From contig NZNN01000001.1 of the NCBI GenBank assembly GCA_002694895.1, forward strand, positions 1 through 10,762: 10,762 nucleotides of DNA, given 5' to 3'. Positions 2,380-10,762 of the stretch are shown in pieces. Source of the DNA: Chloroflexota bacterium. GTDB taxonomy: Bacteria > Chloroflexota > Dehalococcoidia > Lucifugimonadales > GCA-002694895. A program made the translations under genes and the position numbers. Numbering within the stretch: position 1 is the first letter of the stretch; the number at the start of each line of letters is the position of its first letter. Below the pieces are notes generated by a model, which saw only the letters and a program-made list of their open reading frames with translations, ran no database searches and was not told where the DNA came from.

Positions 2380-2685
2380 ATGCCAACTTACGAATACCAT
2401 TGTAAAAAATGTGATATAAACTTTGATAAAAGACAAAGTTTTGATTCTAAGCCAATCGCACAATGTCCTAAGTGTAGTTCTGAATCACAAAGAAAATTTT
2501 CTGTAGTACCTGTTGTTTTCAAAGGCAGCGGATGGTATGTAAATGATTATGCTAAAAAATCTAATTCATCCACTTCTAAACCCGCTCCTGAAAAAACTTC
2601 TACAACAAAATCAAATTCTAAAAATAACACAAAATCTAAAACTTCCGAAAATAAAAACAAAGAAAGTAAATCAACAAAAAATTAA
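2380..2685 (+). CDS. FmdB-family zinc-ribbon protein
   Basis: A 101-residue small protein starting MPTYEYHCKKC, the hallmark N-terminus of the FmdB/CxxC_CXXC_SSSS putative regulatory family. Two CxxC pairs (C8/C11 and C29/C32) would bind one zinc. After the ribbon comes a conserved-looking FKGSGWYVNDY segment (about 48-58), then a lysine/serine/threonine/asparagine-rich low-complexity tail (about 60-101) that is probably disordered. The molecular role of the family is not firmly known; a regulatory or nucleic-acid-binding role is usually proposed. No Shine-Dalgarno is visible before the ATG. It is the first gene after the promoter at 2302-2328, and dtd follows after 15 nt, so the two are probably co-transcribed. 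Confidence 0.88.
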   Translation: MPTYEYHCKKCDINFDKRQSFDSKPIAQCPKCSSESQRKFSVVPVVFKGSGWYVNDYAKKSNSSTSKPAPEKTSTTKSNSKNNTKSKTSENKNKESKSTKN

Positions 2686-4439: not shown

Positions 4440-4530
4440 TGGCGGAGGGTAAGGGATTCGAACCCTTGGAATCCTATTCGAATTCGCACAGTTAGCAACC
4501 GTGTGCTTTAGACCACTCAGCCAACCCTCC
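4440..4530 (-). tRNA. trnS: tRNA-Ser (anticodon GCT), CCA encoded
   Basis: Class II tRNA, 91 nt. The acceptor stem GGAGGGT pairs with ACCCTCC, then discriminator G and an encoded CCA (4442-4440). The D arm is GGCTGAGTGGTCTAAAGC. The anticodon stem CACGG/CTGTG (one G-U pair) holds the loop TTGCTAA, so the anticodon is GCT, reading serine AGC/AGU. A long variable arm follows, then the T arm AAGGG-TTCGAAT-CCCTT. All arms fold cleanly. It lies between the moaE end and the miaB start, same strand as both. Confidence 0.97.
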
Positions 4531-8481: not shown

Positions 8482-9900
8482 ATGAACCAAATCTTAATAA
8501 AAAATGGCACAATTATTACAATGAATCCTGACAGAGAAATAATAGAGTCAGGCAGCGTTTTAATCAAAGATAATAAAATAGCGCAAATTTCTAAAGATGA
8601 AATAAAAGTTAACAAAGATACCTGTATTATTGATGCAAACAGAAAAGTAATATTGCCAGGAATAATTGATTGTCACACACATGCAGGACATACAATGGTT
8701 AAATCTTTAGGTGTGGGAAAATCCAATGACTGGGTAGACGCCTGCTTGAAAATCTACTCTAGCGGATCAAGCCTAAGTTTTTGGGAAACTGATGCTAGTT
8801 TATCCGCATTAGAAAAAATCAAAGCGGGAGTTACATCCTCCTTAATTCTATTTGGCGGAGGTACCGATTTACTAAGATCTGATAACCCTGATTATGCTGT
8901 AAGTTACGCTAAATCATTTGGTGAAAATGGAATAAAAGGAATAGTTGCAGTTGGCCCAAACAGGCCTCCTTATCCTACAATGTTTTACGATAAAGAAAAT
9001 GGAAAGCCTATTAAAGCAAGCCTTGACAATCAGTTAGAAGTAACAGAAGAATTAGTAAGTAATATAAAATCTGTCCACAATAATAACGTCTCTTTTTGCG
9101 TGTCAGCACCTAAATTTTTCCCTGAAGAAATGGATGATAAAAATTTAAGCAAATCAGTAAGATATATGTATGACAAAGTCATGGATTTAAGATCTCAAAA
9201 CAATTTAATTTTCACACAAGACGGACATAAAGAAGGATCAATTTCCGTATCTGATAAATTTAATGCACTAGGAGAATGGGCGTTACTATCACATTCAATT
9301 ACTTTAACAGATGATGATTTAAAATCCATAAAAAAACATAAACCCACTATTGTTCATAATCCAAGTTCAAATTACTCAATTATGGGAAGGTGTCCAGTCC
9401 CTGAGTTACTTGATGATGGGATCAGAGTAGTTATTGGTTCAGATGGAGCTGCACCTGACAGAGGATTTGATATGTTTAGACATATGAGCCAGTGTATGCA
9501 TTACCATCGTAGGCATTTTGAAGACACATCAATATTACCTCCGGGAAAAGTACTAGAAATGATAACAATTGATGCAGCTGAAGCTTTAGGATTAGGATCA
9601 GAGTTAGGGTCAATAGAAACTGGCAAAGTTGCAGACATAATATTAATTGATATGTTTAAACCTCATTTATTACCTATGAATATGCCTGTAACAAGATTAG
9701 CTCATTACGCAAATGCAGCTGATGTAAATACAGTTATAGTAAATGGGGAAATAATCATGCTGGACAGAAATGTACTGAAAGTAAATGAACTGGATATTTT
9801 AGAAAAAACCGAAGAAGAATCAAAAAAAATGTTATCAGAAAACAACCTGAATCACCTAACAAATATTCCTGATAACTTTTGGAAAAAATCCAGACTTTAA
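8482..9900 (+). CDS. Amidohydrolase, ATZ/TRZ (SsnA/TrzN-like) family
   Basis: A 472-residue metal-dependent hydrolase or deaminase acting on amines, amides or N-heterocycles; cytoplasmic, exact substrate unknown. The small beta domain starts LIKNGTIITMNPDR, then the TIM barrel carries the metal motif DCHTHAGH (H65, H67), SHSITLTDDD (H271), IVHNPSSNYSI (290-300) and GSDGAAPD (D321). The C-terminal strand region TIDAAEALGLGSELGSIETGKVADIILID is also typical. The usual HxxE segment instead reads TQDGHKE (245-251), so either H249 is displaced or Q246 replaces the expected histidine. The ATG has only a weak GAGA upstream. It diverges from the crotonase operon across a palindrome and its TAA overlaps the stop of the selenoprotein gene by convergence. 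Confidence 0.88.
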   Translation: MNQILIKNGTIITMNPDREIIESGSVLIKDNKIAQISKDEIKVNKDTCIIDANRKVILPGIIDCHTHAGHTMVKSLGVGKSNDWVDACLKIYSSGSSLSFWETDASLSALEKIKAGVTSSLILFGGGTDLLRSDNPDYAVSYAKSFGENGIKGIVAVGPNRPPYPTMFYDKENGKPIKASLDNQLEVTEELVSNIKSVHNNNVSFCVSAPKFFPEEMDDKNLSKSVRYMYDKVMDLRSQNNLIFTQDGHKEGSISVSDKFNALGEWALLSHSITLTDDDLKSIKKHKPTIVHNPSSNYSIMGRCPVPELLDDGIRVVIGSDGAAPDRGFDMFRHMSQCMHYHRRHFEDTSILPPGKVLEMITIDAAEALGLGSELGSIETGKVADIILIDMFKPHLLPMNMPVTRLAHYANAADVNTVIVNGEIIMLDRNVLKVNELDILEKTEEESKKMLSENNLNHLTNIPDNFWKKSRL

Positions 9901-10433
9901 ATATTCTCCAATTCAACTCCTAAACCATCTGCCAATCTGTTTACATAAGCGTAATAAGATACAATTTGATTAATATCCAGTATCTCTTTGTCAGAAAAAC
10001 CTGCTTTTTGTAAATCCTCAACATCAGATTTTTTCATATCCCATGGAAACAAAGTTAATTTATATGAATAATCCAACATCGCTTTTTCTTTAATGGTTAT
10101 ATCAGCTTTTTTATAATCTTCTTTTAATTGTTCAACCAATTCTTGATTTTTTGTTAATCGGAAAAGCCCTTTTCCGTGATGAATCACTCAGTATTCGCAT
10201 TTATTTGCAGCTGAAGTTACTACTGCAATCATTTCTCTATAAGCTCTTTTTATAGGAGATTTCCCATACATCACAGTCTTATACAAAAGCATATGAGCTT
10301 TAAGTGACTCAATACTTAAACTATGAATTTTCATAATATTATCTACCCCACCCCAAGGTTCAATTAATTGACTGTATATTTCAGCCAATTCCCCTTCTGC
10401 ATCATCCTCACTGATCATATTTATCCAGGGCAT
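9897..10433 (-). CDS. Selenocysteine-containing AhpD/CMD-family peroxidase-related enzyme (in-frame TGA at 10190-10188)
   Basis: One 178-residue protein if TGA 10190-10188 is read as selenocysteine 82. The N-terminus MPWINMISEDDAEGELAEIY, HSLSIESLKAH, and MYGKSPIKRAYREMIAVVTSAANKCEY match the uncharacterised peroxidase-related branch of the AhpD-like/carboxymuconolactone decarboxylase fold. The active site reads C79-E-Y-U82-V-I-H85-H86, with E67 twelve residues before C79. This is the same spacing as Glu118, Cys130, Cys133 and His137 of mycobacterial AhpD. After the TGA the frame runs 96 more residues through LFPWDMKK and YYAYVNRLADGLGVELEN to TAA. A strong AGGAGG sits 4 nt before the ATG. 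A SECIS-like hairpin follows the TGA. It probably reduces peroxides or disulfides; substrate unknown. The alternative is a nonsense mutation or sequencing error in a Cys codon. It converges on the amidohydrolase with a 4-bp overlap. Confidence 0.85.
10159..10176 (-). promoter_or_regulatory. Bacterial SECIS-like hairpin just 3' of the in-frame TGA
   Basis: On the coding (-) strand, CGGAAAA - GGGC - TTTTCCG forms a perfect 7-bp stem (10176-10170 with 10165-10159) closing a 4-nt loop (10169-10166). The stem starts 11 nt after the TGA and the loop 18 nt after it. Known bacterial SECIS elements put an apical loop about 16-37 nt after the UGA with a G in the first two loop positions; here both are G. 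The hairpin lies inside the coding sequence (H-G-K-G-L-F-R), as bacterial elements must. Confidence 0.75.
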
Positions 10434-10462
10434 ATATCCTCCTAAAAAATATAAATAATTTG

Positions 10463-10497: not shown

Positions 10498-10762
10498 ATG
10501 GACAACAAAATATTAAATAACTACCTCCGAAAAATAGAATCTTACCTGGATCAAAATGAAGCTATAAATATTCTTAAATCTATTATTCAAATAGACAGCA
10601 GAACAAATTCAAAAAATGAAAATAATATTATTGAATACTGGGAATCAAAATATTCTGAATTAGGAACAATTAATAAAATTTATAATACAAATGACAATCG
10701 GCTTAATCTTATATCAAATCTTAATTTTTCTAATAATCATAAAACAATAATATTTAATGGCC
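10498..10762 (+). CDS. M20-family metallopeptidase/deacylase (ArgE/DapE/CPG2-like), N-terminal part, cut by the window edge
   Basis: An open frame from ATG 10498 runs off the right edge, giving 88 complete codons. The order of features is that of M20 enzymes just before the first metal ligand: an N-terminal helix, AINILKSIIQIDSRTNSKNE (the 'L..LI.I.S....E' segment), IIEYWESKYSELG, then NRLNLISNL and a strand KTIIFNG. In the family this strand leads to G-H-x-D, whose His binds zinc; that motif lies just beyond the edge. Members cleave N-acyl amino acids or small peptides. No Shine-Dalgarno is present. It diverges from the selenoprotein gene across 64 nt. Confidence 0.7.
   Translation, partial: MDNKILNNYLRKIESYLDQNEAINILKSIIQIDSRTNSKNENNIIEYWESKYSELGTINKIYNTNDNRLNLISNLNFSNNHKTIIFNG

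Follow-up and report, generated by a model that had tools for sequence, protein, structure and literature searches.

The 10,762-nucleotide stretch of DNA analysed here (the window) carries on its minus strand two adjacent open frames, one of 81 residues that starts with ATG (10433-10188) and one of 96 residues (10187-9897), which lie in the same reading frame and have a single TGA as their sole separator. Joined, they form one gene of 178 residues with a TAA stop and one in-frame TGA, at codon 82 (Table 1). This layout had been reported, with the correct coordinates and frame, in a preliminary description of the locus, together with the warning that a gene caller would split the gene, and mechanical ORF calls do indeed give two frames. 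The joined protein contains R66-E67, C79-E-Y-U82 and H85-H86, with E67 and H86 at the AhpD spacing to the motif.

Table 1. Positions of the AhpD-like gene, its sequence elements and the related copies in an order mate
Feature	Position	Strand	Basis
AhpD-like (TIGR01926) gene, 178 residues, in-frame TGA, TAA included	9897..10433	-	frames, profile match, relatives
TGA, very likely selenocysteine 82, second position of CxxU	10188..10190	-	frame and relatives' alignment
TGC, Cys79, first position of CxxU	10197..10199	-	sequence, alignment
AGGAGG before the ATG, likely ribosome binding site	10438..10443	-	sequence
SECIS-like hairpin (7-bp stem; 4-nt loop GGGC at 10169-10166; 18 nt from TGA to loop)	10159..10176	-	folding and published model constraints
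Order mate G010, AhpD-like copies L026, L037, L040 and L043	C22:19376-22541		
Order mate G010, AhpD-like copy L033	C51		
Order mate G010, AhpD-like copy L042	C39		

Family assignment of the joined protein

In a search of NCBIfam, the joined protein matched TIGR01926 (peroxidase-related enzyme) with 147.2 bits against a cut-off of 81.8 (E 4.3e-43), over positions 1-174 of 178 of the profile, and it also matched the Pfam CMD family with 41.8 bits (cut-off 23). A score above the curated cut-off, a match of nearly full length and the spacing of Glu, Cys-x-x-Cys/Sec and His place it in TIGR01926, so the earlier assignment to the AhpD/CMD family is well supported. Six relatives that were scanned, four with selenocysteine (Sec) and two with Cys, all scored above the TIGR01926 cut-off (86.8 to 152.5 bits). 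Among solved structures, eight distinct sequences were matched with an E of 0.001 or lower, the best being 2pfx (E 8.9e-28), which has Cys at the TGA codon and whose Glu, Cys-x-x-Cys and His align with E67, C79/U82 and H86. The earlier placement of the TGA at the second cysteine of the CXXC motif, with E67 and H86 correctly spaced around it, is thereby borne out. Chance would be an unfair explanation for the frame beyond the TGA, because an open stretch of 96 codons has a probability of about 3e-4 under a simple independent-base model with the base composition of the window, and because the match to a curated family is nearly full-length.

The mechanical calls could also be taken at face value, as two proteins: an 81-residue N-terminal half and a 96-residue C-terminal half that starts at the GTG at 10187. 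That GTG is the codon immediately after the TGA, and visual inspection shows no ribosome binding site for it. The match to the family profile extends across the two halves, and the relatives with Cys (L024, L098 and L100-L102) are each one chain. Two separate products can therefore be given next to no credence and were rejected. Very probably, the two frames are a single gene of an uncultured bacterium that reads the apparent stop as selenocysteine.

Conservation of the TGA and selection on the downstream half

Matches to the protein were found in 14 of 40 genomes searched (its own and 39 relatives), and 19 of these 25 matches have one TGA inside. When the 25 were aligned, 19 had the TGA at the site, one had Cys (L024), four had another residue (L030, L031, L032 and L039) and one (L041) did not reach it; the four relatives with neither Cys nor Sec count against the selenocysteine reading. 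The TGA is kept in all four genus mates, at 78-92% identity, so that all five searched genomes of the genus carry it. Named genomes, when scanned, contributed 31 loci; of the 30 that cover the site, 26 have TGA and four have Cys (L098, L100, L101 and L102); one of the six search patterns contained Cys, and any resulting bias would favour Cys rows. With both sets pooled and genus mates counted once, 50 rows cover the site, as 41 TGA, five Cys and four other. The comparison of homologues at this codon, proposed as a check in the preliminary description, thus came out in favour of Sec, and an in-frame TGA aligned with a conserved Cys is what is expected of a selenoprotein. A scan of viral contigs found no relative.

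By record title, 21 of the 31 named loci bear Chloroflexota group names; Roseiflexaceae, Dehalococcoidia, Anaerolineae, Caldilineae and Thermoflexus all belong to this phylum. The other ten are Marinimicrobia (three), KSB1, SAR324, Singulisphaera, a Thermoplasmata archaeon, OCS116, Alphaproteobacteria and Hyphomicrobiales. Separately, the order mate G010 has six AhpD-like copies that contain TGA; four are packed into 3.2 kb on the same strand of one contig, which has the look of a tandem expansion. The 26 TGA loci and these six copies raise the rather unlikely possibility, in a sample biased towards close relatives of the query, that Sec is nearly fixed in this branch of TIGR01926 in Chloroflexota and some neighbours, which would hint at a substrate or partner poorly served by a Cys enzyme.

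Selection was compared on the two sides of the TGA among the five genus sequences. The dN/dS ratio after the TGA is 0.080-0.167 in all ten pairs, and before it 0.062-0.136 in nine pairs, the tenth being saturated. In seven of the nine pairs the downstream ratio exceeds the upstream one, which counts against the selenocysteine reading. Several pairs approach saturation at synonymous sites, and the values should be read as rough. The half downstream of the TGA is clearly constrained as protein. No further stop occurs in the matched stretch of any of 46 rows from relatives and named genomes (47 loci minus L104, which falls short of the site; L030, L031, L032, L039 and L041 are not among them, and the genus mates L020-L023 are present as L089, L074, L103 and L075).

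These data bear on whether the TGA could be a sequencing error for TGC or TGT, or a nonsense mutation with the downstream half in decay. A single base change does turn TGA into TGC or TGT, and the related records are metagenome-assembled by title. Set against this are the same TGA in the separate records of all four genus mates and in 26 of 30 named loci, the low dN/dS after it and the lack of any other stop in the 46 rows. Conservation across separate records, as read from the sequences, argues strongly against an error or a pseudogene, which was rejected as exceedingly improbable. Cys in close homologues together with decay after the TGA had been named beforehand as grounds for giving up the selenoprotein; instead, the TGA is kept and the sequence after it is under purifying selection.

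The surroundings of the gene are kept in all four genus mates, with the amidohydrolase, the open frame at 10498, the enoyl-CoA hydratase and the CoA-transferase in place, and none of these four neighbours was found in the stretches compared around six more distant loci. The amidohydrolase (8482-9900, plus strand) and the AhpD-like gene are convergent and overlap by four bases (9897-9900). The open frame at 10498, provisionally labelled M20, gave no family in a profile scan. No peroxiredoxin was found among the nine window neighbours scanned.

Selenocysteine machinery and a SECIS-like hairpin

The genome assembly to which the window belongs has 1,051,936 bases in 65 contigs and is 65% complete. 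It contains a tRNA-Sec (58.1 bits), which ARAGORN also calls as tRNA-SeC with anticodon tca, and SelB, which was searched for in this genome only and scores 260.9 bits, above the cut-off of 242.25. SelA and SelD gave no match above cut-off in the same assembly, which is weak counter-evidence given its incompleteness. In the genus mates, SelA is above cut-off in three of four (not in G004), SelD in three of four (not in G001), and ARAGORN finds tRNA-SeC in all four. Ten relatives, chosen for strong AhpD-like matches, were searched for sel genes; SelA is above cut-off in eight and SelD in nine. Their best tRNA-Sec matches all exceed the profile cut-off, but ten of ten is an overstatement, since ARAGORN calls tRNA-SeC (tca) in nine and tRNA-Ser for the remaining match, in G038. 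The gaps in the relatives and the absence of SelA and SelD from the window's own genome would be best explained by incompleteness.

The preliminary description had proposed to look for selA, selB, selC and selD in the same genome, and the outcome is mixed: tRNA-Sec and SelB are there, and SelA and SelD are missing from an incomplete assembly and present in genus mates. A genome without any sel genes, which it had regarded as fatal to its reading, is not what was found. As a side observation, each of the nine SelD matches (L054-L062) carries one in-frame TGA, and selenophosphate synthetase thus looks itself Sec-containing in nine of the ten relatives.

According to the bacterial SECIS model outlined in a 2026 review (PMC13188914), the loop has 3-9 nt with G in its first two positions, the upper stem has 4-16 bp and the UGA-to-loop distance is 16-37 nt. 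The hairpin downstream of codon 82 satisfies all of these constraints (Table 1). Rfam, applied to the whole window at gathering thresholds, reported only the tRNA at 4443-4530. Against 1000 synonymous-codon shuffles, the folding energy of the hairpin in the window gene has a z of -4.38, with 0.1% of shuffles as low. The four genus mates have z of -4.10, -3.91, -2.93 and -2.11, the last (L074) missing the 5% level at 5.9%. More widely, of 38 distinct Sec rows (three duplicates omitted; mean z -1.44) only 13 reach that level, as does one of five Cys rows, whose mean z is +0.26. In a third register, nine rows (L081-L088 and L099) have z of -0.20 to +0.33 despite folding to -7.7 kcal/mol, and L026, L090, L093, L094 and L097 are also near zero, L097 being without a hairpin at the site. 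A strong hairpin also folds at the corresponding place in L024, the Cys relative from G039, maybe as a trace of a Sec-to-Cys change or by chance in GC-rich DNA. The limited share of Sec rows at the 5% level, L074, the nine third-register rows, L097 and L024 all count against the selenocysteine reading.

Pairing was counted in two sets, one of 7 rows and one of 23, drawn from the 41 Sec rows with the omission of ten third-register rows (L080-L088 and L099) and the duplicate L040. In the set of 7, 97.6% of cells are paired and both sides have changed in three of six pairs, with slid partners reaching at most 66.7%; in the set of 23, the corresponding values are 95.7%, two of five pairs and at most 57.4%. 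After shuffling of the 3' letters, the covariation score was reached in 1 of 500 cases for the set of 7 and in 0 of 500 for the set of 23. The count of pairs changed on both sides was matched more often, in 12 of 500 shuffles for the former and in 71 of 500 for the latter, which counts against the hairpin reading in the larger set. All these counts are biased towards the structure, because the relatives are non-independent and the rows were sorted into registers by their own folds. The predicted hairpin fits the published bacterial SECIS model and, as judged from the aligned sequences, covaries in relatives.

A last alternative is that UGA is read as Trp or Cys, through a reassigned code or near-cognate read-through. 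Homologues do have Cys at the site, which would suit such a reading, but TGA ends four of the ten other window genes checked, tRNA-Sec and SelB are in the genome, and the SECIS-like hairpin lies at the expected distance. A reassigned code was rejected on the use of TGA as a stop in the window, and Trp or Cys at codon 82 is scarcely credible. That the same ten genes have no in-frame TGA is a consequence of how frames are called and does not count as evidence.

Proposed function and relation to described selenoproteins

With tRNA-Sec and SelB in the genome, the TGA kept across the genus, purifying selection after it and the hairpin, decoding of UGA at codon 82 as selenocysteine is very likely, and the selenoprotein reading of the preliminary description is well founded. 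The product of the gene is almost certainly a small redox protein of the AhpD type, belonging to TIGR01926, for which SelB and tRNA-Sec would decode this codon guided by the hairpin just downstream. C79 and U82 could act together as a thiol/selenol redox couple, assisted by E67 and H86 in the role of a relay, and the protein would cycle between a selenenylsulfide and a reduced form. By analogy with AhpD, we infer that this pair may act on a peroxide or on the disulfide of a partner peroxiredoxin.

For the AhpD of M. tuberculosis, a proton relay of Glu118, Cys130, His132, Cys133 and His137 has been described (PMC3141380). It had been claimed that Cys133, which matches U82, is the activated thiol; it is part of the relay, but in the account of the relay in PMC3141380 Cys130 and Cys133 are both named and neither is singled out. 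M. tuberculosis AhpD and P. aeruginosa PA0269, a weak peroxidase (PMC3141380), have Glu, Cys-x-x-Cys and His at the same spacing as the window protein, with Cys where it has Sec. The window protein resembles PA0269 in having Tyr at the place of His132. PA0269 itself (2o4d) is matched at E 2.5e-5, less well than 2pfx, 3c1l and 6k40 (E 8.9e-28 to 1.6e-22).

The protein had been called new-looking, and this does not hold. Table 1 of the 2026 review lists an 'AhpD-like protein, TIGR01926, CxxU, MCB9421940.1' and credits it to a 2005 survey of the Sargasso Sea (PMC13188914; PMC1088965). That survey reported 27 sequences of an AhpD-like protein with CXXU, and SECIS-like stem-loops downstream of the TGA in its new selenoproteins (PMC1088965). 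The window gene shares subfamily, motif and Sec position with the selenoprotein described in 2005. As compared by the descriptions in these two sources, the curated subfamily TIGR01926, the CxxU motif with Sec second and the SECIS-like stem-loops are the same, and only the individual sequence and the host lineage differ. A table from Global Ocean Sampling further lists AhpD-like 1 (COG2128, 299 sequences) and AhpD-like 2 (pfam02627, 70 sequences), both with CxxU, which by description have this motif and the AhpD/CMD family in common with the window gene (PMC2398784). NF041238 (AhpD_rel_CFYUT) is a related domain that also has CxxU in the table of PMC13188914, but membership was rejected, as the window protein scores 37.7 bits against a cut-off of 175 on a profile 357 long.

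AhpD-like proteins with Sec in the same place were already published in 2005, and the finding by itself therefore opens no new question. Its value lies in mending the annotation of a gene that ORF calling breaks into two and in extending selenium use to an uncultured lineage. The literature search found no paper that brings together selenoproteins, Chloroflexi and SAR202; a query on selenoproteins and Chloroflexota returned none that concerned the AhpD-like TIGR01926 family in its title or the start of its abstract, and one combining peroxidase-related, selenocysteine and AhpD brought up only selenite resistance in Rhodococcus.

Elsewhere in the window, a Zn_ribbon_8 protein (2380-2685, plus strand), presumably FmdB-like, has Cys codons and no in-frame TGA. 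An FmdB-family selenoprotein with UxxU is included in the list of PMC13188914.
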